A stretch of 64,000 nucleotides of DNA from Hexactinellida sp. DTS-2022 (lineage: Eukaryota; Porifera; Hexactinellida), in the NCBI GenBank assembly GCA_028753945.1, contig JAPNXP010000014.1, forward strand, positions 4,278,001 to 4,342,000, written 5' to 3'. Positions within the stretch are counted from its first letter, which is position 1. Each line of letters starts with the position of its first letter. The notes under the pieces were generated by a model, which searched no databases, had not been told where the DNA came from, and worked only from the letters and a program-made list of their open reading frames with translations. The translations under genes were made by a program, and so were the position numbers. This document shows, in pieces, positions 15,159 through 57,916 of this stretch.

Positions 15159-16106
15159 TTAAACTACTGGGTATTGATCCCTTATTTCTTTAATTAAATT
15201 GGAGAAAGTAGCTTCTATATATTTTTTTCTCCAACATATTTCGGCCAGATAGGTGTCCAATAGTTCCGGATTTGTAGTCATGGAGTTCCTCATCCTTTTT
15301 TTTGCTTGACCCCAAGTACTTTCCACAGTTTGGGTATGTACACCAGTGCTGGGATTTACAAAATTTACGCTGTGGTTAACGGTTAAGTGTTGGAATGTGC
15401 TAGCAGGAATTAAATTATACGAGGCCCATTCATCAGAGTAGATAGTAGTCCCAGGGAGAATATACTGCTGTATGATTGGGACTAAAGTTGCTGCTGTCCG
15501 ATTAAGTACAGGGATCATAAAAACCTCCTTTGTATCTCTATCAATTCCTCCAAATACCCATTGACCTGAAAGTAAACGACCTCTGGAATATTTTCTGTGC
15601 CCGAATTTTGATTCATCTATTTCAACGATATGTCCAGGTCCGCCAATTGGTTTGGGATTAGTTAAAAATACTTCAACACACAAGTCACGAATAAAGTTCT
15701 TCCAATCAGTGATTGTATGTTCTCCCCAACCAAGATTCTTGTGTAAAAATGCCGTTGTTTGCAGATTATCAGCCCAGAAATAGAGAAATTCTACCAATTC
15801 GGGTAATGGTACATTGGAACCTTCGAAAAATGAACCAATCCTCAGTGATGCGAACTTTTTACAGTTTTTTTCCGGACATCTCCACCCCTTTCCTTCTGAT
15901 ATACCCGAAAATGCACCAGGACGCATCATGCTACCGCATTTACATAGCATCCCTCTAGCTAAAAGTCCATTAGTCTGCAACCACGTGATACAGGTATTTT
16001 CATCAATAGTAACAGCACGAAAAAGTTGCTTTAATGTCATTTCATTATCAGTAGGGAAGATAGTAGGAACCATCAAAGGTTGGAATGAAGGAGCAATTGC
16101 CATCAA
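15159..16106 (-). CDS. Merlin (IS1016/ISXO2-like) DDE transposase
   Basis: Intact 315-residue ORF. An N-terminal zinc-binding region (C55, C57, C77, C82) precedes an ISXO2-like DDE catalytic domain: D164 in EIDESKFG, D225 in IYSDEW and E262 in TVESTW, with the expected spacing. FGHRKYSRGR and GQAKKRMRNS are typical of the family. Merlin elements are eukaryotic relatives of bacterial IS1016 that move by cut and paste. The absence of stops and frameshifts suggests recent activity or a young copy, in contrast to the eroded MITEs beside it. It lies centrally in the 13049-18619 inverted-repeat element. The start is the first ATG of the frame (Met-Met); a downstream Met12 or Met23 is possible. Domestication is not excluded. 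Confidence 0.88.
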   Translation of the reverse strand: MMAIAPSFQPLMVPTIFPTDNEMTLKQLFRAVTIDENTCITWLQTNGLLARGMLCKCGSMMRPGAFSGISEGKGWRCPEKNCKKFASLRIGSFFEGSNVPLPELVEFLYFWADNLQTTAFLHKNLGWGEHTITDWKNFIRDLCVEVFLTNPKPIGGPGHIVEIDESKFGHRKYSRGRLLSGQWVFGGIDRDTKEVFMIPVLNRTAATLVPIIQQYILPGTTIYSDEWASYNLIPASTFQHLTVNHSVNFVNPSTGVHTQTVESTWGQAKKRMRNSMTTNPELLDTYLAEICWRKKYIEATFSNLIKEIRDQYPVV

Positions 16107-18060
16107 TGATCAATGAAAGAATAATTACGTGTGGTATGTAAATGTGAAATTTTAGAATTGTCTTCTCTGAAACTCTTTTATATTAATATAAGTGGTGATT
16201 TGTATGCCATTTTGGAATTTAAGGTATCTAAGGTCTTTACTACTTGTGGTTTGTATGACACTTTTATGAAACCAACCATTGCTTAACAATTATCATTCCA
16301 ATTGTAATTTTAAAAAGTTAGTATGAACTACAATTGACTAATTTAGAGTGCTTCCAATTGGATTGAGGGTTTCTTATTGAATTAAATTATAATCATTCAT
16401 TACTGCATAAAAACCATTGAAATGATTGCAAATACGTATACTATGTATAATTCTGTTTCATAATAACACAAAACAGAACATTATTATAATAGGATCTACG
16501 TACTTCGAATTTCAGGAGGAACCTACTTTGTATTTGGGGAGCAGGAGTCGGCGCGGCGCTCCAAATTTTGAACATTATTCATTTTTATGAATTATTACAA
16601 TTCCTTCAGGTAAATCACTAATGCCAATCCTAATTGATTTCCCTAAGAAGAACTCCAACCCAATGATTCATGTATCAAAGAATCTCTTAAATAATTGGTT
16701 AAGAAATTTAAACAATTTTTAGGAATCAAGAATCGTGATAAAAGCTTTTAATTTGTGAAAATTTATGTTCAATTGTAGTTAATTTGGTAAAAGCTCTTCG
16801 GAGTCTGTCGTTTCGCGATAGTACACTCATTAATATTGACTATTAAGCATTAAGCAGGATTTATTAATTTAAGAAATAAATTCACAACAAATTAGAATCA
16901 TTTTAGGCTCAAGAAGTTTGCAGAAATAATGGTCGGTAAACATATACGATTTATTTTTAAAATTATCCTCTGAGTAGTTAAAAGCAACTCCATATACACT
17001 CATGAAGTTTGTTTACTCTGTATGACATAAAAATAAATGTATCAGTTGCATGGCTGTAAATAAATCATTTTTCCCAAAATCAAATCATTTGAAATAATTG
17101 GTTTGATTTAAAACCCTGATTGAGATGTTTTAGAATTGTTTATTAATGATGTAATTCATGTAAATGATGTTATTTGATATGAAGAAGTTGTGAAGAAGTT
17201 TTAATTAATTAATGTGAACCTTCTGGAATTTCTAAAATCCGCCAACGCTTCTCATATTATCTAAGTATTTCTAGACAAACTAATATGTGGATACCTCTTT
17301 GGGGGTAACAGACAACTCTGCTTGAAATGATACAAAGGCGCATAGGATTCTGATTTTATTTCCATTCTAGTATTTATTGATAGGAATTTCAACACATGTA
17401 AGAATATTGCAGTAATCTGGAAGGGGCTTATTTATAAAATATTATTAATGTTGACAAATTTATCTCCAAGATTACTATTGTAGGTGGTCATTTGGTAAAA
17501 CAGTATAATAATAGCATGTGTTATAAAACAGGCATTAAGCAACTAGTATATATTTGATTCTTTCGAACTCAGTCTATTCAAAATAGGGGTACAATCGAAA
17601 TTCGGAAATACGGTGCTCTCATATTTGACATTTTTGGATCCAAATTTCCTTCAAATCTTTTCTGAAGTTAATGGATAAGCACATTTAAATAAAAATATAC
17701 ATTCAATCGAGTTTCAATAAATTTGTAAATTTGTTGTTACTAAGAGAACTTTCTAAAATAGATCATGTCTGAAAATTAGTTGATAATGAGAAATGTCGCT
17801 AATAAGCAATGTTGAAACCAATTAGTACAATATTCGGGTTGATACAGAATATCAGCATTTGGGATTTGGTTGGCAACCAGATATATTCGGTTGACCAGAT
17901 AGTACTTTTCAGTTGATCAGGTACATAATGAAGGGCAGAGGAAGCAATTTAAACTTGGTATGCCTAAATTAAACGTATCGTCGTAGCTAGCTACAGCATG
18001 GCGGTACGCGTCTCAAGTTATAGGTTTTAATTATTATACAGACGAATAATTAAATAATAA
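16107..18060. other. Non-coding interior of the Merlin-bearing element
   Basis: About 2 kb of AT-rich sequence with no credible ORF, repeat or RNA gene. Confidence 0.5.
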
Positions 18061-18665
18061 TCTAATAACAGTTGAAATAATGAATAATGTACGCAAGGGT
18101 GGGGTTGGCTAACCGATCTGAGTCAAAAAAATTTAATACTTTATACATTAATTTACCAATAACTCTGCTGTTATTCAACAGACGGGCTAACTGCTTAATA
18201 AAATCTCTAACCGTTAACCGATGTCAGCAACGGTTACCGAATTCAGCCTTAAATGTAGCTTAGCATTTAGTAGAATAAATATTAAACTGGAGATTTGAAA
18301 TTTAGAATAGGAATCTGATAAAATGAATCTGACACCGTAATAACGAAGTGAAGTGTTAGACATGTAAATTGGCTTGTATGCACATAACTATGCTACTACA
18401 ATACTATTTTATAGTATATTTGGCATCAGTGATGATTTCAATTTTTCCCATAGAGTTTGGCTTATGAGCTAAAAAAATTTTAACTTTTTTATTTCTTAAC
18501 CGATTTTAGTGATCTTTAGCTCAATCTTCATGTCTCGACGGGTTCTATCACGTGGCATACAGTGATTTTGACCATCTTTGAAAAAGTAGGGGGGTGTAAG
18601 ATTGTGCAATTGTACCAATTTATTACCTGCGTGCTGAGATGAACAATTTTTACCAAATGTAATTA

Positions 18666-18764
18666 CAGTACAACCGCAATTTCCGAACTTCAATTATCCG
18701 AACACCTCGATTCTCCGAACATTTCAGTTGGCCCCTTGAAATTCGGATAATAGGGATTGCACTG
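18666..18764. mobile_element. TA-flanked pogo-like MITE, 99 bp
   Basis: Inverted termini CAGTACAACCGCAATTTCCG and CAGTGCAATCCCTATTATCC, TA on both sides, interior with TCCGAAC words. Lies just upstream of the Helentron leader exon. Confidence 0.75.
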
Positions 18765-18878
18765 TACTAATTAATGTGCCAAATTGTCTATTCTTTATAT
18801 AATTTAATTAATAAATCAGTTTATCATTTTTGAATAACTTTCTAAACGCTTATTAGTTAAAATTTTATTTGAATAGAT

Positions 18879-19076
18879 ATGATTTCAATCGAGCTTTGGC
18901 GAGCAAGAATTGGAGGCTGGGGAGGAAAAGGTAGAATGAGATCAGCATGTAATAGTCCCCATAGTTTCAATCCCATTACGAAACAGACTGATCCAACAAT
19001 CGCACTATCGTGTTGCCTGTTATTGATAGTAATCAGGATACTCCTAGTGATCGGCGGAGTAGAGTTAAATCCTGGA
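18879..19076 (+). CDS. Helentron exon 1, left part: hydrophobic leader and start of 2A-like motif
   Basis: ATG at 18879 opens a 66-codon stretch: a basic/Gly-rich start, then a hydrophobic segment at residues 41-58 (signal-anchor-like), ending GGVELNPG at residues 59-66. The matching right half after the MULE supplies the next codon, Pro, which completes the GVELNPGP pattern of 2A-like peptides, where the ribosome skips the Gly-Pro bond. Hydrophobic leader plus 2A is known at the start of some non-LTR retrotransposon and immune-receptor ORFs. The usual Asp two residues before Glu is Gly here, so activity may be reduced. As it stands, the frame now runs into the MULE and stops at 19103. Confidence 0.7.
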
Positions 19077-19084
19077 TTTCTAGT

Positions 19085-19192
19085 CAAAACGGCCACAAAC
19101 TAAAACGGCCACAACCAAAACGGCCACAACCAAAACGGCCACAAACCAAAACGGCCACAAACCAAAACGGCCACAAACCAAAACGGCCACAG
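19085..19192 (+). repeat. Left subterminal minisatellite of the MULE
   Basis: Tandem copies of AAACGGCCACAAACCA and the shorter AAACGGCCACAACCA; mirror-oriented partner at 21442-21557. Confidence 0.9.
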
Positions 19193-19224
19193 TCTCAATA
19201 CCTATTAATAACTAGTAATTTCAT

Positions 19225-19262
19225 TACTGTGCCATTATACTAAAGTATAGTCGGCACAGTGA
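19225..19262 (-). repeat. Stray copy of the ~35 bp palindrome inside the MULE
   Basis: A diverged copy (CTATACTAAAGTATAG variant core, one side GTGCCATTATAC) lies between the left minisatellite and the transposase stop, showing that this palindrome also occurs away from the large arrays. Confidence 0.7.
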
Positions 19263-19384
19263 AACAAACAATGTAAGAAAATGTAATTATTATTAATAAG
19301 GAAATAACAAAATGAGACTTTAAATATTGATAGTGAATATAAATATTTTAGATAGATAAATAAAATGACCTAAAGTATGATTTG

Positions 19385-21292
19385 TTATAATTGAGGTCCA
19401 TTAAGCCTAGAGCAAGCGCGTAACATTTGACTAGCTGATACTGTCCCTTGAGAATATTTTTCCCATAGAGTGAATATTGCAGCCTGCATTTTCCTGTAAG
19501 TTAACCTTTGATATCTTTTCAATTTATTTTGAGAAACTAGATGTAGTTGTAGTGTGATTATTTGAGACTCTTTATATAAAAGCTCTATCAGAACATAAAA
19601 CTGTAATTGACCTCTTCGAGCTCTACTATTAATTCTTAAATGCCATCCTTCGACGTCGTTATTGGTACGTACAGTTTGATTGAATACACACCAATCTTTC
19701 GGTTGCCACTGTCCAGCGATCCATGTACTATCTATATAAGTTGTCAGTTGATGTTCAATATCACTACTGGCGCGCTCTTCTAGATTTCTGAAGGCAGGTT
19801 CTATGTGCTCGCATGGAAGAAATGGTAGAGCCATTAATCTTCGACAAAAGTCATGGGTTGAATTGTTATTCATGTATTGTGACTGCAAACCCAAGATTTG
19901 AATCTTTCTCCATACTGCCTGTGTCCAATGGAAGGAACAACCTTGAAGTACCACTCCTGGGTATACTTTTGGAAAAGCTTTCCATAAAGCCAATTCAAAA
20001 TCCATCACTGCACTTCTAACAGCTGGTGCACCGGGAAGAGATTCTAATACCTTAGTTAATACTTTTCTGTAATCCCTTTTGCGTTTTCCCGACATTAGAA
20101 CAAACACTAATGGTAGCTGCTTAATTGAGCTTTCAGATTTCACGAAAGCATGAATAGAAAATAGTTGGGTAAATGGTTCCTTAACGATTTTAAATGTCCC
20201 GTCCAAATACCACTTTTTAGCCCTGCATAAAATATTTAGCATTTGGTCTGTAGCAAATATGAGATGTCTTCGTTCATCAACCTTGATGTCTCCACGTAAA
20301 AAGTTTCCAGGAATATAGTCCATATTTACTTCGAAGTCTAAATCAACAGGATCTTGAGGTCGAATAGTCTGTCTGGCGCGGTTTGCAGCTCGTGCTAGAT
20401 TAGTTAGACTTGGTTGTAAATTATTTGTAAAAGGTATGAGTGCATTTTCGACTATCTCAGCAGCAGGAACAAATATTTCACGTTTGGCTCTATTTATTAC
20501 GAATACCTTTAGCTCTGGCTTAAAGTTTACTTCTGGATTTGCTAAATGGTTGTGGGCATTGATCCCACGAGTAAACAAATTACCGCGTTGAATAATCGTT
20601 GCTGGACAAATCAAAGACTTATTACGTACGCTACAACGCCAATAGTTTACCATGTTCCTTCGAATTTTTATTATGTAGGAATACCCAACCTTCTCTATCA
20701 ACAGATCTTTTCCCTTCTGTGAGGAGTTTGTAATAACACGGAATGTCGGGATATCATCAGTTTGGGTGTTACCAGATTCTAAAATAGATCCGTCAAGTGA
20801 GGATTCTTGTAAAGCATCTGGAATAATAAAATCTGGAAATAAGTTTGTATTTTCGGTCGAAATATTAGGGATATCGATTTCGTCTGAATCATCGAAGATC
20901 AGATCATTAGTTAGATCTTGAGTGAATTGATTTGGCAAATGCGCAATGGATGGGGTTGGAAAATCAACGGGCGAATTGATTTGCTCATATGATAGGGCAC
21001 AACTGTTTTCTTGAATAGAAAGTGGTGATACTATTGTACTTTCCAAAAGTGGCAAATCTTCAGAATGCAGTTCAAGGTTCATCCTTTCTAAACAAGATGC
21101 GCATTTCCACACTATTTCTTCTTCTCCTCTTACCGCTCTCCGATAACAGTGACGTGAGATGCCAGTTTTACATGTGCGATGCTGCCAGAATGAACAATTT
21201 TCACATTGAATCGCTTCCTGCCTTGGCCTTACCGTTTGGCCACATTCCAGACACGGATCAACCACTGCTCCATTTAGTGTATTATCTGACAT
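19385..21292 (-). CDS. MULE transposase with PHD finger and FLYWCH domain
   Basis: Intact 635-residue ORF. Domains in order: PHD-type zinc finger at 14-67 (C14, C17, C30, C33, H38, C41, C64, C67); acidic linker 75-185; FLYWCH-type finger at about 188-250 (C220, C229, H247, H249); MULE catalytic region with D364 in WYLDGTF, D431 in VMDFE, CxxH at C452/H455 and E548 in NNDVEGWH. FLYWCH fingers bind element ends; a PHD finger suggests chromatin reading, possibly target choice. The gene fills the element between its two minisatellites. Start chosen at Met1 because the PHD begins 13 residues later. No stop or frameshift is seen, so this copy may be functional. Confidence 0.9.
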   Translation of the reverse strand: MSDNTLNGAVVDPCLECGQTVRPRQEAIQCENCSFWQHRTCKTGISRHCYRRAVRGEEEIVWKCASCLERMNLELHSEDLPLLESTIVSPLSIQENSCALSYEQINSPVDFPTPSIAHLPNQFTQDLTNDLIFDDSDEIDIPNISTENTNLFPDFIIPDALQESSLDGSILESGNTQTDDIPTFRVITNSSQKGKDLLIEKVGYSYIIKIRRNMVNYWRCSVRNKSLICPATIIQRGNLFTRGINAHNHLANPEVNFKPELKVFVINRAKREIFVPAAEIVENALIPFTNNLQPSLTNLARAANRARQTIRPQDPVDLDFEVNMDYIPGNFLRGDIKVDERRHLIFATDQMLNILCRAKKWYLDGTFKIVKEPFTQLFSIHAFVKSESSIKQLPLVFVLMSGKRKRDYRKVLTKVLESLPGAPAVRSAVMDFELALWKAFPKVYPGVVLQGCSFHWTQAVWRKIQILGLQSQYMNNNSTHDFCRRLMALPFLPCEHIEPAFRNLEERASSDIEHQLTTYIDSTWIAGQWQPKDWCVFNQTVRTNNDVEGWHLRINSRARRGQLQFYVLIELLYKESQIITLQLHLVSQNKLKRYQRLTYRKMQAAIFTLWEKYSQGTVSASQMLRACSRLNGPQL

Positions 21293-21441
21293 TAGTTACG
21301 GTAATAATACATAATTTGATTATTTTCTTGATTAAATACTTACAAAAGTATAAATGTTGTGATAAATCACTTTGTACAAATTATAAAAGACCTACAATTC
21401 ATGGTGTCACTTAATAACCTCTCTATTGTTACAATTAAATT

Positions 21442-21557
21442 GTTTTGGTTTGTGGCCGTTTCGGTGTGTGGCCGTTTTGGTTTGTGGCCGTTTTGGTTTG
21501 TGGCCGTTATGGTTGTGGCCGTTTTGGTTGTGGCCATTTTGGTTTGTGGCCGTTTTG
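21442..21557 (-). repeat. Right subterminal minisatellite of the MULE
   Basis: Inverted-orientation counterpart of the left array (copies of TGGTTTGTGGCCGTTT), with a few substitutions such as CGGTGTGTGGCC. Confidence 0.9.
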
Positions 21558-21577
21558 ACCTGCATGCAAATCCTGGA

Positions 21578-21632
21578 CCTACCGGAGGAGATCCTAATGC
21601 CTCACCTTCCCAAGATTTCTCCTCTGAAACAG
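21578..21632 (+). CDS. Helentron exon 1, right part: Pro after NPG and start of mature protein
   Basis: Directly after the second AAATCCTGGA, codons read P-T-G-G-D-P-N and on to a phase-1 splice donor (ACAG|GTAATG, intron from 21633). If the MULE and one duplication copy are removed, this reads in frame with 18879-19076. The acceptor before 22520 (CTTTTAG|AT) has the matching phase, so the leader joins the Met-Asp-Ile start of the next exon through an Asp codon. Confidence 0.6.
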
Positions 21633-22519
21633 GTAATGTAATTAACAAATTTTCATTTAGTTAGCAATTTCTTGTGAAGTATTTCACAGCGATTATACAT
21701 TTAATTAATTTATCTATGAGAGGAGTAATAAATAATTTAATGTGGTGCCGCGACTCTTCTAGTATAACTCGAATTACTAATTAAAAATACACAGATGGTA
21801 TCGCCTAAGGATGTTTTTCAATTATCATTAAAATGAATACATCGCTACATAATTCTAGGTTCTATTAATTCATTTTTTTGCATTAATGAGCATCTTCTCC
21901 ATTGTAATTACATTATAGTTTACTGATACTATAAGAAATTACATTAACCTAAATTTACCTACTAGTCTAATAATAATGACTGTTATTATTTTTAGCTTAG
22001 TTGTTTGTAAGTGAAGATGTGTTTCATATCAAGTACAATGAAAACACATAGAACATTTACAGTGATGATGATTTCAATTCTATTATTCTAATTAGTATGT
22101 TAATTAATACTACGAACACGTATTTCTATTTGTAATATTTATACTATTGTATACTTTAATTAGTTACCGCCTATTCTTGTTTGAATTCTTTACAATTAGG
22201 AACATTAATTAAAGATTTATCCCTGTACCTACAATACATATCTATTAATTAAAGGCTTGTGGGACCAAAATTTGGGTGCGGACTGTGCCAACCAGAATAT
22301 AAATTACTTGTTTATCGGCCATTTATTTTTTCAAATACGACGCTGTGCGGAATTTATTTTTCAATAATGTACTAACTAGCAATATATATTATATTATATT
22401 ATCCTAAGTCAAACAATAAAGATTACTTTTATATTCCATTAAATAAAAGAATCACAAAGCAACGTCCATTATTGAACTTATACTACGCAGGGAAATTACT
22501 ACCTTTTATAATCTTTTAG
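21633..22519 (+). other. Inferred first intron of the Helentron gene
   Basis: 887 bp between donor AG|GTAATG and acceptor CTTTTAG. AT-rich with no credible ORF. Inferred from splice-site words and phase agreement only. Confidence 0.5.
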
Positions 22520-23566
22520 ATACTATGGATATTTCAAATCAAGGACCAATTGATTCTACTTTCCGAGAATTGAGTCCAATGGAAATACAGATATGCTCAC
22601 AAGTAGAGACTAACGAAGATTCGGAATCTGAAATGAATGCTGATCTAAGCCAAGACGTTCAGCGTACCCCGATTACTTCTCAGGTTGTACCGATGAATGA
22701 TCTCGGGTTGTCTAGTCAGTGCTCCTCTAGCTGTGCTACTCCTAGCAAGGGCACACCGATCTCTACTCCTAAGTCTCGTAAGAGGAAGGGGTATAGAGCT
22801 ACTAAGGATAGAAAGAGAGATGCTATTAAAAAGAGGAGAACGGATGATACAGAGTTTCGTGATAATGAAAACGAAACAAGACTTGCGAGTGTCAAGAAAG
22901 CTCTTGAAGATCCTGAAACAAGAGCGAGACATAATAGTGATATCTATGTTGAAAATAATGGCAAATACTCTCAATGATCCAGCTGAGAGGGCAAAACATA
23001 ATGCATTTGTTGCAGATAAGCTCAAGGATCCGGCTGAGAGGGCAAAACATAATGCCGCTATTGCAGATAAGCTCAAGGATCCGGCTGAGAGGGCAAAACA
23101 TAATGCCGCTATTGCAGATAAGCTCAAGGATCCAGCTGAGAGGGCAAAACATAATGCCGCTGTTGCAGATAAGCTCAAGGATCCGGCTGAGAGGGCAAAA
23201 CATAATGCCGCTGTTGCAGATAAGCGTAAGGATCCAGCTGAGAGGGCGAAATATAATGCCGCTATTGCAGATAAGCTCAAGGATCCAGCTGAGAGGGCTA
23301 AACATAATGAACGCCAGCTCAAGCTTGTTACCGAGAAACGAATAGACTCTAAAGAGAAAATGAGACACAACCTAGCTGAGATAAATAGATATAGGACTAT
23401 GCGAGGTGCACTTAAGTCGGTTATTCTCAAGTATCTATCTGAGATAGCTGAAGGCCCAACTTTTGTTTGTTCTTGTTGTGGATGTCTCCATTTCAGGAAA
23501 ACAGTTGTCATTCTTAAGAGAGAAAAACTTGTTTCAACGAATGTGTGCAATGATTTCGTCAAACAG
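22520..23566 (+). CDS. Helentron exon 2: N-terminal region with seven 17-residue repeats
   Basis: Begins in frame 1 (Met at 22525) with a Ser/Thr-rich and Lys/Arg-rich region; between about 22940 and 22975 the frame must move by one base to reach the tandem repeats in frame 2, so one small indel is present. Seven repeats of about 51 bp encode LKDPAERAKHNAAIADK-like units (22970-23310), predicted highly charged and helical. After the repeats comes a CSCCGC cluster that continues into exon 3. Ends at AAACAG|GTAATT at a codon boundary. The role of this region in Helentron proteins is unknown to me. Confidence 0.7.
22970..23310 (+). repeat. 51 bp coding tandem repeat, about seven copies
   Basis: Nearly identical 51 bp units, each with a GGATCC or GATCCAGCTGAGAGG word. 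Because 51 is a multiple of three, several other frames are open too and give repetitive shadow ORFs. Confidence 0.9.
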
Positions 23567-23723
23567 GTAATTATATTATACTCCATTCATTCCATTGGTA
23601 TTATTATCAATATCTTTAAATATACTAAGATTAGATTAGAAATGATTTATAGATTAAGTAGGTATTAAATATAATTTTCGGTTAATCTTATTCATTTTAA
23701 TATCTATAATTATTTCTATTTAG

Positions 23724-24577
23724 GTTTTTCTCTATGAGACACTTAACATGGAGTATGTGTGTAAGACCTGTCTCATTAATATCAAAGATGGCAGAGTCCC
23801 TAAGATAGCGTTATGCCGTGGTTTAACTTTCCCTGAGATTCCTCCTGTGCTTTCTGGTCTGACTGTGATTGAACAGAGACTGGTATCTCCCAGACACGAG
23901 TTCATGAACATCAGATCTCTTGGCAGGGAGAGACAGCACGGACTGCATGGAATGGTTGTTAATGTTCCCATTGACATGGATAAGACTGTTAATCAGTTAC
24001 CTAGGACGTTCCTACAGTCCCAAACCATTCAGTTACAATTGTTTCGTAAGTTATCGTTCGCGAAACCCTATTTATACGAAACGATAAGACCGAATGTAGT
24101 GTTAGAAGCCGCTCTCTATCTCTCTACTACTGAGCTCTTCAAGCTAGAGAAGGTAGTAGTTTCAGAGAATTGGGTTAACTCTGTTACACGTACTGGTACT
24201 AGTAATGTTAATTTTATTGTTAACTCGAATGACGAGCCTTATGATATAGTAGTTGTAGATGAAGAGGAACAGGGTTCTGAGACTATTCCTGGTATCGAGG
24301 AGCTCTTCGATAACCTTGAGGAGTTGTTGAAGGAGATTGATGATTGGGGTGAGACCAAGGATGATCTCCCAATTAATCCTGGTTCTTTAGACACACTGCT
24401 GCTGTCTAATGAGAACCTGCTAATGAAATTGGCTCCTGGAGAAGGGAGGAAGCCTCTGTACTTAACCACGGATAGGTTTATAGAGGAACTTGCTTACCCT
24501 TGTGTGTTTGCTGGTCTCAAGAGAGACTTACCTGAGGACTTGTCTATCCTCAAGAAATCAAAGTCTGACATCTTGAG
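23724..24577 (+). CDS. Helentron exon 3: Cys-rich zinc-finger-like region before Rep
   Basis: Acceptor TATTTAG|GTTTTT at 23723, 157 bp intron, codon-boundary join. Encodes VFLYETLNMEYVCKTCL: the CKTC pair together with CSCCGC of exon 2 forms a probable zinc ribbon, a feature seen upstream of the Rep domain in many Helitron proteins. The middle carries the conserved-looking LPRTF and FAKPYLYETIRPN words; the end is acidic. Donor ATCTTGAG|GTTAGT at 24577, 189 bp intron to 24766, phase 2, rejoining as Leu-Arg-Tyr-Asp. Confidence 0.75.
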
Positions 24578-24766
24578 GTTAGTTATACTATTAATAGCAC
24601 TTATAATCTCAATCTCTACTATACATAATTTTGTTACTCAACCGTAGATACTCTTAAAGTTGAATGACTATGTTATATCCATGGTCCAATAACATATTTG
24701 TTTATTTAAATTACAATTAACTAAGTTTCAATATAATTTTCAAATCTTCTAATGAGACTTCCCTAG

Positions 24767-25976
24767 ATATGATAGGAGATGTAGCACTAACATCCCTCTG
24801 CTGCTTCTCAAGTACAAACTGGTGGAGACAGCTAGTCTTAACAATGCTATCAGTATTTGTATGAGAAAGACTAAGTCTACAGACGGACAGGCTATAACTG
24901 TGTCTGATGTTCTCAATGACGATAATCTGGAGAGAATGGTTGAGGACGATGAGGCTTTTAAGTTCTTAAAGCAAGTCCGGTCTACCCCTGCATTCTGGCA
25001 GCAGAAACAGAGAGAGCTGATGTCTATGATAAGACAGCTGGGATGCCCCACGTTCTTTCTAACTCTGTCTGCTGCTGAGACTAAATGGCTAGAGCTACTA
25101 AGGATACTGAAACAGATCCTAGATGACGTTAAGCTGTCTGTTGAAGAGGTTCTGGAATTCCAGTGGAGCGAGAGAGCAGATCTGATAAGGAGAGATCCTG
25201 TCACTTGTGCTAGGTACTTTGATCACCGCTCCAAGGAGCTATTTAAGGTGCTTCGATCAGAGGTTAGTCCCCTTGATAAATTGACTGATTACTATTTAAG
25301 AATAGAATTTCAGCAGAGAGGGTCACCACATGTGCATTCGTTACTTTGGATACAAGATGCCCCTAAGTATGACCACAATCCGTTAAATGAAGTAATAGAT
25401 TTTATTGATCATACTATCTCAGTTAAATTGCCAGATGAGACTAGTATAATAACTGAGGATGATATTAAGTTACAGCGACATAAGCACACGAATACTTGTT
25501 ATAAGAAAAAGTCGTTTCGGCGCTGTAGGTTTGGTATTCCGTACCCTCCAATGGTATCAACTAAAATTCTAGAACCATTGGAGTTTGATGCCAGTACGGC
25601 TACCAAAGAGGAGATAGCTGCTAATGCAGCTCTTAAGGAGACTGCTAAGAAAATATATACGCTAATTGACACCTATGATAAGAGCGATACTGACTTGGGT
25701 AGTATAACGATACAGGATTTCTTTAATGAACTCTATGTTACCGAAGAGCAATATATAACTGTATTGAGATCTTGTATAAATAGACCAACTATATTTCTGA
25801 AACGAAATTTGAATGAAATGCGGATCAATGCTCATAATAAGACTATATTGCATCTCTGGAAAGCTAATATGGATCTCCAATACATATTGGATCCATACGC
25901 TTGTGCTGTTTACGTTATTTCCTATATCGGAAAGTCCCAGCGTGGGATGTCTAAGTTATTGAGAGATGCCTTAATG
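24767..25976 (+). CDS. Helentron exon 4, left part: HUH Rep endonuclease
   Basis: After the acceptor CCCTAG at 24766 the frame runs into a Helitron-type Rep domain. The HUH metal-binding motif is EFQQRGSPHVHSLLW, with HVH at 25329-25337. The catalytic tyrosine region is VYVISYIGKSQRGMS near 25908-25952. Rep nicks DNA and starts rolling-circle transposition. The reading frame is cut at 25976 by a 153 bp MITE; beyond it the protein continues in a different frame (from 26138), exactly as predicted for insertion of 161 bases. Confidence 0.85.
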
Positions 25977-26129
25977 CAGGCGTGTCAAACTGGTGGCCCG
26001 CGGGCCATTTGTGGCCCGCCGGTTGCTCAGATGTGGCCCGCAATCCATTAAAATATGTGGTATATGGCCCGCGTAAAGGGCTGGGACTATGAAATTGGCC
26101 CACTATTCGAATCGAGTTTGACACACCTG
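25977..26129. mobile_element. hAT-type MITE, 153 bp, disrupting the Helentron
   Basis: Termini CAGGCGTGTCAAACT and, inverted, CAGGTGTGTCAAACT, with GGCCCGCGGGCC inside; exact 8 bp duplication CCTTAATG at 25969-25976 and 26130-26137. The 161 added bases shift the Rep-helicase frame and add stops. Confidence 0.93.
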
Positions 26130-26137
26130 CCTTAATG

Positions 26138-29100
26138 CATTTGAAAGCAGGCAATGCCACTATCAAAGAGAGACTGAGGGGAATTGCATACAAATTTCAG
26201 AGCTGTAGCGAGGTATCAGCTCAGGAGGTTTCTTACCATCTCCTCAGTCTCCCTCTCTCTAAGTGCAGTAGAGCAAATGTGTATATTAACACCAATCCTG
26301 CTAATAAACGGGTTAGGATACTCAAGTCCAAACCCGTTCTAATGGGTATGGAACAGGATTCTGTAGATATACTTCTGTCAGGTCTAATTGAGCACTACAT
26401 GCAACGACCTGATGAGTTAGAGGAAACATGCCTAGCAGAGTTTGCCGCTTGGTATGAATTCCAATCTAGTAAGCGTATGTGTAAAACTAATCCCGACTTT
26501 GATGAGGAAAATATGGAAGACGAGGCAGCGTCCCTGGTCGATAATCCGACACTATTTCCTCTCAAAGATACAGGTTTTATGAGACTTCGTCGTAAAGCTA
26601 AAATTATCCGATTTAGAAGGTATAGTATTATACAGGACGAAGTTAACTTTTATAGAGAACAGTTAATGCTGTTTGTACCATGGAGAACTGACACTAATGA
26701 TACTGACAATATCGACTTTAAGTCTATGTTTGCTACCCATCTTACTCTGATTACTCAGAATAGGGAACTATTTGAAAGCAGAGACCAATCCTCAATTGAC
26801 GCGGCTATTAATATCCTCGAGGACTTGGACCCTGATGAGCTAAACTTTGATGGGATTGCTATTGAGGAAATAATGAACAATGAGGGTGCAGTGGTTATTC
26901 AGGATACTGACTTTCAGGTAGACAATCCAGGGAACGACAATCCCTGGACTGTAGATCCCAATAGTGACCCCGGAACTAAATCTGTAGGAGGATTCTTCAA
27001 TATTCCTAACATGAATACTGAGGAGGTATTCCTTGAGATGTGTCGCAGCTTGAACATGGTTCAGCGTACTGTATTCCTCCACACTCTGCACTGCTTTAAG
27101 ACTATTAAGCAGCTGCCTATGTATCTCTATATAGGAGGAGGTGCTGGTGTTGGTAAGAGTACGGTGGTACGAGTCTTATACGAAGGTTTGGTAAGATTTA
27201 TGAATTCACTACCTGGCACTAAGCCTGATGCTATTAAGGTACTGCTAACAGCTCCTACAGGTAAAGCTGCTTTTAATATCCGTGGTATGACACTACATTC
27301 TGCATTTGCTTTACCTGTAACGGAGTTTAACGGCGAAATGCCCAACCTGTCTTCTGATGTTTGTAACACATTAAGAAGTAAGCTAAGCTGTTTGAAAGTC
27401 ATCATAATAGATGAAATATCCATGGTTGGTAGTAAAATTTTGTCTCAGGTTAATAAGCGATTGAAAGCCATTATGAATAATTCACTGGACTTTGGTGGTG
27501 TCTCCATCATCTGTGTTGGAGATTTCCATCAGTTACGTCCGGTTAAGGATAGCTATGTATTTCAAATTTCAGTCTCCAGTGCCAATAATTACGACGGGCT
27601 GGTTGGTCCGTACCTTTGGGAAAAATTCTCATATATAGAACTGACGGAAATAATGAGACAAAAAGATGATCAGAAGTTTGCATTAGCATTGAACAATTTT
27701 GCTAACTGTTGTTTAACTGAGAATGACACAAAACTTTTTACCAGTAGAATTATTGCGAAAGATTCTTATGAGAATCTTCCCATAAAATCTATCCATCTGT
27801 TTAGTACTAACGCCAGTGTTAATGCTCATAACGAAATTGTTCTCAATGCATTAACCACTGAAGGTTTTAGATTTATAGCTATTGATTCTTTAGTAGGAGA
27901 TACTGCTGGTGGTATAACTGACAAGCTGAGTAACCTTATTAAACACCTAAAGGTGTGTGACACCAAGGGACTACCCTATGAGCTCTTCTTGAAGCTGGGC
28001 GCTAGATACCTCATGACGCTGAATAACGATATACAAGATGGTCTGGTTAATGGAGCTACTGGCCTCTTGAAGAAAATAGTGTATGGTACCAAGAGCGATT
28101 CTCTGGAACGAGTTCCCTGTATCCTCTGGATTGAGTTTGACGATCCTACAGTAGGAAAGGACAAACGAGCAAAGTCTCAGCATCGTTATCTTAGAGATAA
28201 TGCAATTCAAAGGAACTGGACTCCTATTGGATTGGAAACACGACGTTTCCAAAGAGGGAAAGCCGTGAGTTGTTATAAGATAGTTAGGAAGCAGTTTCCT
28301 TTCATAGTAGCCGAAGCTCTTACAATTCATAAGAGTCAAGGCGATACTTACGATTGTGTTGTAGTCCATATAGAAATACGTATGCTACGTAATGCGTTAT
28401 ACACCGCGCTCAGTAGGGCTAAATCTTCATCTGGTCTGTTTGTAGTTGGTAATCTAAAACTAACTAATAAGTTATCTGAAAAAGATCCTGTCCACTTAGA
28501 ACTTAAGCGGTTAGGAGAACAGTGTGCTATTATGTGGTCTATTCCACTAACTAGTCCAGATATCTATGTACACAATGTTCGTTCATTGAACAAACACTGG
28601 GAAGACTTGACCTTAGATCCACTCATATTGCAATCCCGAGTGTTAATCTTACATGAGACAATGACTTTAGCCACTGATAACTTTAATATCCCTGGTCATA
28701 CTCTCATTGGTAGAATTGATGGTAGTGCTAGACTTCCTGGTTCTGGTACACACATATACTCCCGAAATCCAGCGGTGTGTAAGTCTTTAGTTGCACACTC
28801 AGGCTGTTATAATAGCGCTAGGATCGAGATATTGATTCTACAGTTCTATGATCCCATGATAATCGATAAGCCTATCGTAGTAATGTCTATATACCGATCA
28901 CCACAATCCCCAATGAAGGAATTTTACTCTGAGTTTGATCAGGTTCTAAGTAAAATTGATAACTCTGATCCCTTGATAATTACTGGGGACTTCAATATAG
29001 ATTTATTTGCCCGCTCTCCTGAGAGAGATACCTTGATAAAGTATTTTGCAAATAAAGGGATGATGCAATCTTTGTCTGGAGTATCCACTAATTATGGATC

Positions 29101-30010
29101 TCAGCTTGATTGTGTATTCACTAAAAACTTGACCTGTTCATTTGATTTTTATGAATCATACTTTAGTGATCATAAGCCAATGTTGATTTCTCTTGGAACT
29201 GTTGTTAGTGACTGTAGTAATGTGGATAATCAACCAATTATATCACATGCTACTAGTCAACATGATATTATTGATATTGACCAAACACTAAATGATAATA
29301 CAACCAAGGATATTCAGGATGTAATTGTTAGTCATGTACACATCCCTACTCCTGTGCTGTCTCCCGTAAATACATATGACAATGCTAATTCATTCACATT
29401 TGCGATGAGACAGTCATTAGCAGCATGCATTAATCTACAGAGAATACCTTTAAGACCGACTAACTATACTGGGTCTAGAGTCTCTGCTACTAGTTATTAT
29501 GATTTTATGCGTACAAATGTAAGAGATCGGTTTAATTTCAGGATAGTTCCTGTAACAAGTGATGGGAATTGTTTCTTTAGAACATTGTCTCACATAATTT
29601 TCGGTGATGAAAGTGAGCATCATAATATCCGTGGTTCTCTCATAGACACATTTGAACAAAGTCCTTATGTTGCTGCTTTCTGTGGCATCCAAGGCTATAA
29701 TGAAGTTACTATTCAGCAACACTTGAGTAATATGAAGCGTAATTACTCTTGGGGAACTTTGAATGAACTTATTATGTTTGGAATCTTAGCTGGTATTAAT
29801 GTTAGTTACATTAATGCTGTTGTTACAGACCCTTCTAAGTGGGTAATAACTGATGTGTCTACTGAGAATATTCTCGGTAAACCAAGTGATCCAATATATG
29901 GAGGGAGACACCTTGTTGTGTTGTTTCATAGTATTAATTTCTCTGGATCTTGTTCTAATCATTATGACGCATTGTATCCTGTTAATAATGCTCATAATTC
30001 TGTTTATTAA
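26138..30010 (+). CDS. Helentron exon 4, right part: Pif1-like helicase, AP endonuclease and OTU protease
   Basis: Continuous ORF after the MITE. First the end of Rep and linker, then a superfamily 1 Pif1-like helicase: Walker A GGGAGVGKST at 27134-27163 and Walker B VIIIDE at 27398-27415, motif VAEALTIHKSQGDTYD near 28305. From about 28555 an exonuclease-endonuclease-phosphatase (APE-like) domain: HNVRSLN, GDFNID at about 28985, SDHKP at about 29165. Last an OTU domain: SDGNC at 29558-29572 and NHYDALYP at about 29956, giving Asp, Cys and His of the triad. The helicase unwinds during transposition; the roles of endonuclease and OTU are unproven. No stop occurs over nearly 3.9 kb, so decay is recent. 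Confidence 0.9.
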   Translation, partial: HLKAGNATIKERLRGIAYKFQSCSEVSAQEVSYHLLSLPLSKCSRANVYINTNPANKRVRILKSKPVLMGMEQDSVDILLSGLIEHYMQRPDELEETCLAEFAAWYEFQSSKRMCKTNPDFDEENMEDEAASLVDNPTLFPLKDTGFMRLRRKAKIIRFRRYSIIQDEVNFYREQLMLFVPWRTDTNDTDNIDFKSMFATHLTLITQNRELFESRDQSSIDAAINILEDLDPDELNFDGIAIEEIMNNEGAVVIQDTDFQVDNPGNDNPWTVDPNSDPGTKSVGGFFNIPNMNTEEVFLEMCRSLNMVQRTVFLHTLHCFKTIKQLPMYLYIGGGAGVGKSTVVRVLYEGLVRFMNSLPGTKPDAIKVLLTAPTGKAAFNIRGMTLHSAFALPVTEFNGEMPNLSSDVCNTLRSKLSCLKVIIIDEISMVGSKILSQVNKRLKAIMNNSLDFGGVSIICVGDFHQLRPVKDSYVFQISVSSANNYDGLVGPYLWEKFSYIELTEIMRQKDDQKFALALNNFANCCLTENDTKLFTSRIIAKDSYENLPIKSIHLFSTNASVNAHNEIVLNALTTEGFRFIAIDSLVGDTAGGITDKLSNLIKHLKVCDTKGLPYELFLKLGARYLMTLNNDIQDGLVNGATGLLKKIVYGTKSDSLERVPCILWIEFDDPTVGKDKRAKSQHRYLRDNAIQRNWTPIGLETRRFQRGKAVSCYKIVRKQFPFIVAEALTIHKSQGDTYDCVVVHIEIRMLRNALYTALSRAKSSSGLFVVGNLKLTNKLSEKDPVHLELKRLGEQCAIMWSIPLTSPDIYVHNVRSLNKHWEDLTLDPLILQSRVLILHETMTLATDNFNIPGHTLIGRIDGSARLPGSGTHIYSRNPAVCKSLVAHSGCYNSARIEILILQFYDPMIIDKPIVVMSIYRSPQSPMKEFYSEFDQVLSKIDNSDPLIITGDFNIDLFARSPERDTLIKYFANKGMMQSLSGVSTNYGSQLDCVFTKNLTCSFDFYESYFSDHKPMLISLGTVVSDCSNVDNQPIISHATSQHDIIDIDQTLNDNTTKDIQDVIVSHVHIPTPVLSPVNTYDNANSFTFAMRQSLAACINLQRIPLRPTNYTGSRVSATSYYDFMRTNVRDRFNFRIVPVTSDGNCFFRTLSHIIFGDESEHHNIRGSLIDTFEQSPYVAAFCGIQGYNEVTIQQHLSNMKRNYSWGTLNELIMFGILAGINVSYINAVVTDPSKWVITDVSTENILGKPSDPIYGGRHLVVLFHSINFSGSCSNHYDALYPVNNAHNSVY

Positions 30011-30059
30011 GAATATGTTGATACCTATTTATGTATTGGATGCATATTGAGTACACATT

Positions 30060-30725
30060 GGTGCAAAATGACCCGGCTTGTAGAACAAGATGTAACACTT
30101 TAATTAGTGTTACATTGTGTCTTACTCTCATGTCACTTGAGTTTTGGCACAAGTGTGTAGTAAGACTTGCTTGTAGAACAAGGATGCAGAAAGGCCTGGC
30201 TAGTAGAACAAGTGTGTATCACTTTAATTAGTGTTACACAGTGTCTCTAACACTTGGGCATGAACAAGTGTGTAAGAGTACCTGGCTTGTAGAACAGCGT
30301 GTAATTTATGTAGTTACACTGAGTCTTAGCATCAGGTTTGTAGAACAGGCGTGTAACACTTTTATTAGTGTTACTCAGAGTCTTATAGCACCTGATGTTA
30401 CGTGTACGTATTTATCGATTTCTGATTATACGTGTATAGCTTTATTTGTATATTGGAGATGTGTACAATTGATATATTTATCTGGGCTTGGTTCTGTCCG
30501 CTATACTAGTACCTGGTTTAAGCGTATAACATTGAATGTGTATACAATATACCTAGCTTGAAGTAAGTGTGTTTACACCTGGCTTGTTTACAAGTGTGTA
30601 GAGAGACCTGGCTTGAGCAATCAAGTGTCTTATATTTACACCTGGCTTGTCTACAAGTGTGTAGATAGACCTGGCTTGAGAAATCAAGTGTCTAGGAACA
30701 CCTGGCTTACGTGATTCAAGTAGGT
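30060..30725 (+). repeat. Degenerate tandem repeats 3' of the Helentron gene
   Basis: At least eight occurrences of CCTGGCTTG-like words spaced about 50-110 bp apart, several followed by a small stem (TAACACTTTAATTAGTGTTA). Helentron-related elements often have such repeats near the 3' end; I take this as part of the element, without proof. Confidence 0.7.
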
Positions 30726-31084
30726 ATACTAAACGGTTTGTAATAGTATAGAGTGTAGAACTCATTGTTGTTTTTTTCCAAATTTTGATCGAATTCTCTT
30801 GAGAATTGATTTTGGGGAAAATCGGGGAAAAGGCACTGAGGTGTGTCCCAAGTGCACCCACTGATTCCTATCAGCAGCCCTTGAGGGACCGAATTGAAAT
30901 TCTTCATAGATTTCAAACAGTATTCTGTATGGTGAATTTAAATAATGCATCTTAATTTAGGTTAAATTATTGGTTAATTATGAATTAAGGTGGTATTTCA
31001 AATACGTATTAACGAATATACTTATTGCACAATACGTATATTACATGTAATGTTCCGCCTATGCAGAGAAAAAATCTATAATTA
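30726..31084. other. Intergenic stretch after the Helentron
   Basis: No gene. Contains a short palindrome AATTCTC-TT-GAGAATT at 30790-30806, preceded by a T run, a possible Helentron 3' hairpin. Confidence 0.3.
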
Positions 31085-31936
31085 CAAACATGTTTATTAT
31101 CATTTTTTCTCGGTAGACGGTGCCCTGGCCAGAGCTTTGTCTGGTCCATAACTCAAAAAATGTTATACTTAACCTCCAATTCACAAAACTCTGCGGCTGA
31201 TGGGAGAAGAAAATTTTTAATAGTGGGTTTAATTTCTGCCATAAATGGGGGTTGAAATTTCTTTGTTTACTCACACTTCAGTTTCAGTAAAAGTGTTAAA
31301 TCTAATTCCATTGTTTCAACTTGTAATAATTATATTGATTTCACTTGTTAAATCTTAACTCTATTGTTTCAACTTGCGATAAATATATTGATTCAACATA
31401 TAAATTCCAGCTGGCTTCTATTTAATTGTAGTATTACTAGACAATGGATTAAATAAAAGAGCATCCTTAAATGTAGACCGTCTAGAAATAGACGGTCTAT
31501 AAAAGCCCATACAAATAAGCCAAAAATTTGTAGACCGTCTATAAATTCTGTAGACCACTTGCCCTGCTTTTTATGGGTAATACTAATGTATAGGGTATAA
31601 AACCTGGTCTATTTCTATACGGTCTACATATAAGATATCTCTAAATAAAATAATATAATATAAGGAATTTGTTGACTTTACTCAACTCACCGTGGATAAC
31701 ATTGCTAAATTAAATAACTAATAATATAATTTATTATCAATACATAATCCTTGTGACTCGGACCAATTAACAAATGGTTCTTGACACCTTGAGGCGATGA
31801 TGACTTGGCGAAAAAAATCCAAAATTGCAGCCTGTGATGACAGCATGTTCCTTTGGAGGCACTATCAATAAACCACCATAAAAATATAGTGCCACCAAAG
31901 GAGCATGCGTCGGCACAGGCTGCAATTTTGGATTTT
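31085..31936 (+). repeat. Array unit 9, family A, plus orientation, internally deleted
   Basis: A head truncated inside (CTGGCCAGAGC joined directly to TTTGTCTGGTCC), body interrupted by a MITE, hairpin 31814-31936. It is the only plus-oriented unit right of the Helentron. Confidence 0.8.
31458..31641. mobile_element. 184 bp MITE with 8 bp duplication TAAATAAA
   Basis: Inverted termini AGAGCATCCTTAAATGTAGA and AGAGATATCTTATATGTAGA; TAAATAAA at 31450-31457 and 31642-31649. Inside are repeated (T)GTAGACCGTCTA palindromes. Sister units have an uninterrupted ATTAAATAAAATA here. Confidence 0.85.
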
Positions 31937-32884
31937 TTTTATCACTACCATTATTACAACCAGAATAATTCATTGTTTACTGATTCTGTTTGCATTCCAA
32001 TCATCTGATGTCTTAGTTATATAGTTGCAATTACAATTTGCTATTATTAGTTGAAACTCAATACTACAATGGGAACTAAGAGAAGCGAATGAATTGTGTT
32101 ACATTACGTAGGTAGTATAAATGATATCACTAATATTGATGTTATGATGAAATAAAGATAGGCTTAGCTAAAATAATGAGATCGAAATTGAAACATTTTG
32201 GAGAAATTAAAAAATTCTGAAAGAAATGACTAGCGACCCCTGTTTTTTTTTCTGGGGATAGAATAATAATATATCAGAGAAAGTACCTGTAAAGTTTGAA
32301 TCGATTCTGGTTCAATTTTATCTCGGAAAATTGAGCTCAAAGTTTGAAAAGATAATACAATAAAAACAGAGATTTACGCCATTTTTAAAGGAGTTATTTA
32401 TCTGTTATAAAGGGAATATTTGAGAATCTAATGGCATTGAGGTAAACCTCCGTGTCTCCTCTAACGAACGATATCAAAATAAATTAGATTCAGGTTGATA
32501 TTGGATAGGAATTGACACTTTGGACTAAGCATACTCAATGGACTTTTCAAAATTCTACTTCCACTCTTTTTCCCAACTTCAAGTTTGAATGTTTATAACT
32601 CCAAAATTTTTGAGAAATTTTAAATAAAAATTAAATCACATAAACCTCCAACTCTCCAAAGTATGATAACAAATTTTCAGAATTATAAACAAATTTTGAG
32701 AATGTGATTTTTGTATGATAAAAATAACCAACTGAAAGTTAAAAAATTTAAAAATAAATAATATCACGGGAAACCTCCGTATCTCCTCTTTCGAACGACA
32801 CTAAATTAATTTAAATCTAATAACTAGAAGTGAGTCAAATATCTGACTGAAGTGAGCCTGGTCGAATACTAAGCCAACTTCACA
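31937..32884. other. Unassigned AT-rich stretch with one internal repeat pair
   Basis: No ORF of note. Two copies of AAACCTCCGT(G/A)TCTCCTCT at about 32442 and 32769 with similar flanks suggest an old local duplication or element remnant. Confidence 0.4.
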
Positions 32885-33592
32885 GTCATCAAGGTGTGAA
32901 GAACCATTTGTTAATTGGTCGGAGTCACAAGGAACGGTAGATAAATTTGAAGTTAGTTTCTATCATAAACCATCTTGAGTTTAATGCCATTCATTCATTA
33001 TGTATTGATAATAAGTTATATTATTAGTTATTTATTTTAGCAATGTTATCCATGGTTGGTTGAGTTGAGGCAACAAATTCCTTATATTATATTATATATT
33101 TAATCCATTGTATAGTAATAGTACTAGAATTAAATAGAAGCCAGCTGGAATTTATAAGTTAAATCAATATAATTATCGCAAGTTGAATCACTAGAGTAGG
33201 ATTTAACAAGTTAAATCAATATAATTATTACAAGTTGAAACAATAGAATTAGTTTTCACAGTTTTACTGAAATTGAAGTGTGAGTAAACAAAGAAATTTC
33301 AACCCCCATTTATGGCAGAAATTGACCCCTTTATTGAAAAATTGATTCTCCCATCAGACGCAGAATTTTATGGCGAATCCAAATGTGAAATAAAAATTGG
33401 GGGTTTAGTAAAACATCTTTTGAGTTATGGACCAGACAAATTTTGAAAGGTGTTAAAGATGTGTCAAAAATTTCTTAATCAAAAATCGTAACCCCAGGTG
33501 CAAATTAGACGGTCCCATCGCACCTACATGCCAAGTTTAAGCCCATCAACTATAAAGCTCTGGCCAGGGCACCGTCTACGGAGAAAAAAAAA
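32885..33592 (-). repeat. Array unit 10, family A, minus orientation, tail truncated
   Basis: Reverse-oriented A unit with head at 33592; homology ends at 32885 before the tail hairpin. From here to 50 kb all units are in minus orientation. Confidence 0.8.
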
Positions 33593-34093
33593 AATCCAAA
33601 ATTGCAGCCTGTGCCGACGCATGTTCCTTTGGTGGCACTATATTTTGGTGGTGGTTTTTTGATAGTGCCTCCAAAGGAACATGCTGTCGGCACAGGCTGA
33701 AATTTTGGATTTTTTTTGCCATGTCATCATCACTATGAAGGTGTTAAATTATTTCAAAAAGGTGTTACAGAAGGCATCGACCCTTAGAGTGGTGGAAGTT
33801 TCCATTTAGCTCACTTCATGTTAGAGATATTCAAGTTTGAGTAGAATATATTAGCTGATGACTCAGCATTTTTAATGTGAGTGATGGGTCATCACCCAAC
33901 ATCAACTAACCCATTTTAAATGTCGAATTAACAAAATTGTAAAAACACATTTTTTTAACGATGTCATCATCACCTCAAGGTGTCAAGACCCACTTGTATA
34001 GGTGGCACGTGCCATAAGGACTTATTGATAAATTGAAAGTTTGTTTCTATCTTCTATGATCTCTGATATTTATGATATTTAATTAATTAGTAT

Positions 34094-50960: not shown

Positions 50961-51512
50961 CTACAATTCCATGTCTTGTGTCTCATCTTCTGAGAGATCT
51001 GAGATAGAACTCTCACTCGAACTGTCATCCTCCCCATCAGCTTCTTTCAGGGCTTTTTCAGTCGCATACTTATCTATATACTCCCGAACTCGCTTCTTAA
51101 ATTCCTCTGGCTTGTTGATAAACAGCGCGGCAGCATCCCCGTTGAGAGGGTCACTAGGATTGGGGTAGGTTAGGAGCTGCGGCAAGAATGACTCAAATAC
51201 GTTCTGGAGGTCATACAGAGCAGTCCAAGATTGGTTGATAACGTCCAAACACACAGAGCCCGAAGCTTCGTCAATGTTAGGATGATAAATTCGATTCAGG
51301 AAACCAATCGATGGGGATTTGAAGGGGTATTTCTCAGGAATATCCACTCGAACCTTCCATATACCCCCTTCATAAGGAGTGCCATCTGGTCCGTGAAATT
51401 TGACCATTAACTCATTTAGCCCTCCAAGGATGGTAACTTCGTACTTGTTCTCAATCAGCTTACACACGTCAGTGTCCATACGGCGCTTGTTAGCGACAGG
51501 TGAGCAAGACAT
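50961..51512 (-). CDS. UBE2H: Ubiquitin-conjugating enzyme E2 H
   Basis: Uninterrupted 183-residue ORF, the usual length of animal UBE2H. UBC fold with [11 protein letters not shown], the HPN motif at 77-79 and the catalytic cysteine C88 in [12 protein letters not shown]; the C-terminus is the family's Ser/Glu/Asp-rich tail ending TQDMEL. UBE2H takes ubiquitin from E1 and passes it on, notably with the CTLH/GID ligase. Start chosen at [16 protein letters not shown], which matches the conserved N-terminus of the family. UBE2H is normally split by introns in animals, so the single exon is notable, but no frameshift or poly(A) tract points to a processed pseudogene. Very confident in identity. 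Confidence 0.97.
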
Positions 51513-51818
51513 TGGTAGGGTGACAAATGGATAAATAAATTAAAACAAAAAAGCCCAGCTGGCGAAAGTGAGATGAAATATGCTTTTAAGTAAAGAAAGA
51601 AATCTTGTATAATATACTGGAACTTATTGGGTTTCGATAGGCAATAGTGAGGTTTTAGATCTAATTCAACAGTGTACAACAGCACATTAGGAATAAGATA
51701 ATGTACTTTTGAATAAATTAAATCAATTATATGAATAGGCAGCTCTGCTATTAAAACTGATTATATTAGTTAATATTGTTCTTGTTAAATTAATCCAATT
51801 AACTATAAGATTGATATA

Positions 51819-57668: not shown

Positions 57669-57916
57669 CATAGGCGCCGAAAGGGGGGGGGTCAGGGAGG
57701 GTGTCACCCCCCCTGGCCGAGGAGAATTCAGGGGAAAAAAATGGAAAATTCTTGATTCCATAACGAGTTTGTATAAATATCAGTGGATGATGTATATATC
57801 TTTACAATTATGCCCATCAAACATTGATTTTATCCCCATAAGCATTGTTTTTTGAACTTTCACATTTGAATATTACGTCACACCCCCCCTAGCGTTTGAG
57901 AGTTTCGGCGCCCATG
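57669..57916. mobile_element. hAT-type MITE, 248 bp, ending the acyltransferase frame
   Basis: Inverted termini CATAGGCGCCGAAA and CATGGGCGCCGAAA; exact 8 bp duplication GATGTAAC at 57661-57668 and 57917-57924. G-run at one end, C-run near the other. The present stop codon of the acyltransferase frame lies inside it. Confidence 0.92.

Follow-up and report, generated by a model that had tools for sequence, protein, structure and literature searches.

A putative 2A-ending leader at the head of Helentron proteins and of other DNA transposons

A rolling-circle transposon in the window (the whole stretch of 64,000 nucleotides analysed here) is preceded by a short open reading frame (ORF) that ends in a 2A-like motif. 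The locus raises the question of whether this leader is the front part of the transposon protein and, if so, how the two parts would be expressed from one frame. According to the original prediction, the leader reads through GGVELNPGP to a phase-1 donor fitting the acceptor of the transposon's second exon. This reading was borne out in the window and in uninterrupted copies elsewhere in the same genome.

The Helentron copy in the window

The copy, termed Helentron A, lies on the forward strand and extends approximately over 18617..31423, the limits being those of similarity to other copies: similarity to locus L002 begins at 18617/18660 on the 5′ side, and similarity to a copy on contig C11 (94.5%) continues until 31423 on the 3′ side. 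The leader ORF (18879..19076, + strand) encodes 66 residues with GGVELNPG at the C-terminus (codons 19056..19076, + strand, the start being approximate), and a hydrophobic segment adjoins this 2A core. The last codon of the core, CCT, has been pushed away by a MULE inserted on the minus strand (19077..21567). The MULE has a 635-residue transposase ORF (19385-21295, - strand) with MULE and FLYWCH domain matches, as well as 109-nt terminal inverted repeats that are 95% complementary (19083-19191 and 21451-21559). A 10-bp target duplication, AAATCCTGGA, recognised by eye, flanks it at 19067..19076 and 21568..21577.

The remainder of the leader exon (21578..21632, + strand) resumes with the second proline codon of NPGP and leads to the donor G|GTAATG at 21632/21633. 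A GT..AG phase-1 intron predicted from the sequence (21633..22519, + strand) ends at the acceptor TTTTAG|ATACTATGG at 22519/22520. By eye, donor and acceptor are both phase 1 and in frame with an ATG at 22525. Exon 2 (22520..22977, + strand) encodes the N-terminal part of the RepHel protein; in the window copy, the frame is disrupted near 22977.

Three further ORFs follow on the forward strand, with a DUF6570 match (23724..24647), a Helitron_like_N (Rep) domain (24756..26051), and PIF1 helicase and AP-type endonuclease (Exo_endo_phos) matches (26093..30010). The Rep domain is of the Helitron type (PF14214, E 1.6e-28) and the helicase of the PIF1 type (PF05970, E 2.1e-24), while the endonuclease lies C-terminal to the helicase (PF14529, E 1.8e-8; PF03372 at the cut-off). 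By this coding content the element is a Helentron. Helentrons often have an OTU protease as well; in 26093-30007 no match to one was obtained up to E 0.1, an OTU-like stretch being seen there by eye only.

The window copy is broken by the MULE, the frame break and a short insert near 26000. This insert, at about 25970-26140 in the Rep ORF, has terminal inverted repeats by eye and ends that we take to be hAT-like. The region on the 3′ side of the Helentron (31100-33720) is repeat-rich and partly inverted, and resembles, in several orientations, the region to the right of the C11 copy.

Pairing of the leader with RepHel

A search with the leader DNA gave 23 matches in the genome (112 Mb, 18 contigs), the window included. 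The Helentron A leader was read at 18 loci, 12 of which have a leader ORF, the window's counted; in the other 11 (L002, L004-L012, L017) the leader runs through NPGP without an insert. NPGP is typically followed by TGGDPNASSS.DFSSET and then by the donor, whose context, CTGAAAC[A/C]G|GT, is intact in 12 of 14 loci; L013 and L017 deviate from it. An alignment of exon 2 was possible for 11 of these 14 loci (the stretches fetched for L004, L009 and L017 contain no exon 2), and the acceptor AG is intact in 10 of the 11, L007 having AA. The order leader, 2A, exon 2, which the original prediction proposed to look for in uninterrupted copies, was thus found (11 loci, with the junction in 14 loci). 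Three Helentron A leaders on C11 (L013-L015, G000:C11:9014695-9033017), identical in sequence and strand and 8.5 and 9.6 kb apart, all lack the 2A core; they look like element copies in tandem.

A third Helentron lineage, Helentron C, bears on the same order. At L041 and 20 further loci, the leader, GGIEINPGP and the exon-2 homologue form one ORF, so that the leader-2A-RepHel order needs no inference about splicing. The stretch read is stop-free at 18 of the 20 further loci, and the leader ORF is intact in 19 of all 21. Over the two long stretches compared, the RepHel DNA of L041 is 90-98% identical to that of the window, whereas the leaders of Helentrons A and C average 46% amino-acid identity, a pattern such as a swap of heads would produce. 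A short intron interrupts Helentron B (L029) at the corresponding place, and its donor is again phase 1.

The exon-2 start ATACTATGG, including the equivalent of the ATG at 22525 just past the acceptor, is kept in the aligned Helentron A copies, so RepHel could start there too. RepHel might accordingly come mostly from this ATG, on transcripts started within the intron, the leader exon being a minor or regulatory extra. We regard this as distinctly unlikely, given that donor and acceptor have stayed in the same phase and that Helentron C, which is intronless, reads straight from the leader.

At least 40 RepHel matches were obtained in the genome (36 of 566 candidates scored), 17 of those listed being stop-free open frames of 1,695-1,709 residues. 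Thirty-four of 40 were used for pairing, the six omitted being extra pieces of the same copies, and the leader lists used here and for the 3′ ends omit weak matches. At 29 of the 34 RepHel places listed, and at 23 of the 24 that are near full length, a same-strand leader is situated 3.4-12.6 kb upstream. Conversely, a RepHel among the places listed is in range for 29 of 45 Helentron leaders (A, 9/21; B, 1/2; C, 19/22); the remaining 16 have none in range among these places, which counts against a leader-2A-RepHel model. Among the same places, RepHel lies downstream of none of 36 leaders of two other transposon types and, as an upstream control, upstream of none of 81 leaders. For 18 of 44 Helentron leaders vs 0 of 20 others, the Helentron 3′ non-coding end (54 of 66 matches used) occurs 5-20 kb downstream, with none upstream and one on the opposite strand as controls.

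The pairing at 29 of 34 places and the one-ORF fusion of Helentron C confirm that the leader is part of the Helentron. The assignment needs one amendment: the leader heads Helentrons without being specific to them, as two further transposon types begin with homologous leaders. These are F3, a Mutator-like transposon with a PF20700 transposase, and F4, an element with an unclassified protein. The existence of other elements headed by homologous leaders could be taken to mean that the leader belongs to a different element that merely neighbours the Helentron. The copies contradict this through the same pairing counts and fusion, and we rejected it as having a negligible probability.

The 2A core, selection and release of the leader

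The DNA pattern of the 2A core has 128 matches in the genome (65 + 63), the individual core places described here being among the matches listed, vs none for the reversed pattern. A fortuitous core was rejected on this basis and on that of 31 cores vs 0.001 expected in relatives of RepHel (below). The GVELNPGP of the uninterrupted copies fits the core (D/G/C/N)(V/I)ExNPGP and is preceded by a leucine-rich run. Across the five families, 44 of 56 loci retain the core (A, 13/19; B, 1/2; F3, 4/6; F4, 8/8; C, 18/21).

Amino-acid-changing variants in the leader fall below expectation in all four families compared (p 2.7e-9 in A, 5.2e-16 in F3, 0.0011 in F4 and 1.3e-6 in C), each distinct codon variant being counted once and multi-base changes being split by a rule of thumb. 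The first 20 codons of F4 alone are not significant (p 0.16). Pooled dN/dS values, obtained from non-independent pairs and for F3 from 4 loci, are 0.29, 0.36, 0.46 and 0.40 for A, F3, F4 and C, respectively. Both ends of the leader have lower values (0.16-0.28 over the initial 20 codons and 0.15-0.32 over the final 25, which comprise the hydrophobic part and the 2A) than the codons between them (0.45-1.0). These codon patterns indicate that the leader is under purifying selection.

RepHel is probably the downstream product of a single frame, which opens with the leader and its terminal 2A (StopGo) sequence. The leader-2A-RepHel order, the open frame, the selection on the leader and the presence of 2A in a further Helentron branch all point in this direction. 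By the published 2A mechanism, a ribosome at NPG|P would let the leader go and then continue, and RepHel would begin with proline. The leader would most likely be a hydrophobic or signal-like peptide that needs to be removed from an enzyme acting on nuclear DNA.

In viral 2A cores, glycine is about as common as aspartate at the first position (available text of PMC12846837). The same text gives about 92.7% to nearly 100% separation for the assayed upstream motifs 1, 3, 4 and 6; the leucine-rich run of the leader, ending in GG, resembles by eye motif 5, a class outside those assayed. The fit to the core and the separation in the assayed classes, with the motif-5-like class of the leader outside them, lead us to expect leader release and a proline-started RepHel.

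The leader could also be a selected signal-like peptide whose NPGP end causes no skipping, a reading that would fit the conservation of its N-terminal end as well. It is very unlikely, since constraint is among the strongest in the final 25 codons and the core recurs after unrelated leaders and ahead of unrelated proteins.

Hydropathy bears on what the leader would do. The highest Kyte-Doolittle mean over any 19 residues is 2.64-3.54 in Helentron A leaders and 0.85-1.35 in those of Helentron C; maxima across Helentrons A and B, F3 and F4 are 2.5-3.5. The membrane targeting proposed for the leader is plausible in Helentron A, but cannot be general given the weakly hydrophobic leader of Helentron C. 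A related possibility is dual targeting, in which the leader is a signal sequence and purposely incomplete skipping yields both a released intracellular and a fused, membrane-bound or exported RepHel. The strongly hydrophobic segment lying against the 2A in Helentrons A and B, F3 and F4 agrees with this idea, and the leaders of sea urchin NLRs offer a precedent (PMC4981915, in the part available). We consider it possible but unlikely: the Helentron C leader (0.85-1.35) does not suit the role, other Helentrons have a GDSL-type protein or repeats rather than a signal peptide before the 2A, and an exported RepHel would have no obvious use. Release of the leader from RepHel remains the preferred reading.

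Leader-2A heads in other Helentrons and on other transposons

Among the best 120 of 686 relatives of the window RepHel, two (P0055 and P0111) have the core, a proportion that counts against the leader-2A-RepHel model. A further search with residues 1-600 of P0111 gave 85 proteins, the query included. Thirty-one of these have the core, once each and always ending within the first 605 residues, vs an expectation from composition of 0.001 in 174,105 residues. Most of the printed rows of the 31 have a leucine-rich run before the core, e.g. LLLLGGDIETNPGP. For P0111, none of the 22 matches scored in this genome exceeds 38% identity; as far as that search reaches, the protein is therefore not from this assembly. 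By these comparisons, the P0111-type relatives are another Helentron branch, from other records, that also bears a predicted 2A.

The part preceding the 2A varies in this branch and may be a short hydrophobic leader, repeats or a protein of ∼450 residues. Among three proteins scanned, a GDSL-hydrolase match is above the cut-off in P0179, just below it in P0163 and absent in P0127. About 450 residues precede the 2A in P0163, P0165, P0172, P0175, P0176 and P0179, and P0172 has a GDSL-hydrolase match in its precomputed annotation. These proteins suggest that it would be RepHel release that stays constant across Helentrons, while the type of leader differs. A helicase tree was built from 111 rows (the window and 110 of 204 relatives, taken if at least 1700 residues long or core-bearing and with enough helicase); on it, the 2A label requires 10 changes, no fewer than 9 of which are forced by the starred branches; mis-set protein starts may hide a 2A, so the tree changes are not a count of gains.

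2A sequences were reportedly described in APE-type non-LTR retrotransposons and in L1Tc, by Odon in 2013 and Heras in 2006. Those cases share with ours a 2A-type sequence in a mobile-element protein, but here the elements are rolling-circle and cut-and-paste-type DNA transposons. A literature search that covered few subscription papers yielded no description of 2A for Helitrons or any other DNA transposon. Helentrons as described in PMC4067079 likewise combine Rep, PIF1 helicase and a C-terminal AP-type endonuclease in one protein; the difference is the 2A-ending leader at the front, 2A being unmentioned in the available part of that account. The viral StopGo/2A sequences of PMC12846837 have the same core and, by eye, a similar leucine-rich upstream context in the text available, but that study is a survey of viral sequences, and "transpos" and "helitron" are absent from its main text. 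The sea urchin NLR leaders (available part of PMC4981915) are also N-terminal and hydrophobic, with 2A at the end. They differ in belonging to immune receptors with measured skipping and targeting, and the leader of Helentron C is weakly hydrophobic.

Translational recoding by 2A has been reported, in the portions of the literature available, for viruses, non-LTR retrotransposons and sea urchin immune receptors. If the 2A described here works, rolling-circle and other DNA transposons employ it as well, which would help to account for the variable N-terminal extensions of Helentron proteins. It would also provide many natural 2A variants to try, and make the exchange of 5′-exon modules between unrelated transposons testable.

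A search with the leader protein found 96 places in the genome, with best E-values of 2.2e-12 (F3), 2.4e-10 (F4) and 7.3e-9 (Helentron C), the leaders of the Helentron, F3 and F4 types being on average 36-47% identical to one another. The shared pattern is an MIS start, then a WR or YR motif, and a GG(V/I)ExNPGP end. In F3, L045 is a single 912-residue ORF comprising leader, 2A and transposase, with a PHD-finger match just below the cut-off. The core is present in 4 of 13 PF20700 relatives. One relative, P0212, has the same kind of leader and is 36-44% identical end to end to the F3 copies of this genome, which places it in another source. Homologous leaders head F4 at L035, L037, L038, L040, L042-L044 and L046; the F4 protein gave no Pfam match (L037, L042) and one meaningless PDB match (E 0.37). 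Shared promoter DNA was rejected as the source of the shared leaders, as the DNA before the ATG (70 bp, or 20 bp in two loci; 14 loci, compared by eye) is unlike between families beyond a few bases.

A phase-1 G|GT donor candidate follows the 2A in 29 of 29 intron-split loci with a result (30 given), copies within a family not being independent, and another donor phase is possible too in 4 of the 29. Nine loci with other leaders have one donor candidate exactly 10 nt past the last core codon. In proteins with signal peptides, phase-1 introns are in excess near the cleavage site (available text of PMC1626468). The phase-1 donor in all the intron-split leaders read would make them usable by any phase-1 acceptor. 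The leader-2A often forms a separate exon with a phase-1 end, and transposons could therefore exchange it as a prefabricated head. On balance, we lean towards the leader-2A exon being a portable head common to unrelated DNA transposons, the likeliest route of spread being an exchange of phase-1 leader exons.

Some leaders lack the MIS..WR start. At L070 and L081, a different leader ending in SGDIExNPGP precedes integrase (rve) domains in single ORFs, and L069, L078, L082 and L086 are similar by eye; these integrase-core elements are possibly Ginger-like. Other such leaders precede F4-like proteins at L068, L071 and L073 (by BLAST), L075 (through L071), and L067 and L080 (by eye). Among the 20 further core regions fetched, no downstream protein was recognised at L072 and L083, an F4-like ORF is absent from the stretch fetched for L074, and L084 looks like a chance match (GC-rich, with no element recognised).

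One F4 element with its own leader-2A, L037 (G000:C6:4276881), starts 1.1 kb to the left of the window. A window ORF at 1876-2916 has an OTU protease match and looks by eye like the C-terminal part of this element (cf. L044). Elsewhere in the window, an ORF on the minus strand (15159-16109) has an ISXO2-like (IS1595) transposase domain. Likely host genes, also on the minus strand, encode a ubiquitin-conjugating enzyme (50961-51539), a chondroitin N-acetylgalactosaminyltransferase (52963-55089) and a carnitine acyltransferase (57889-59784).
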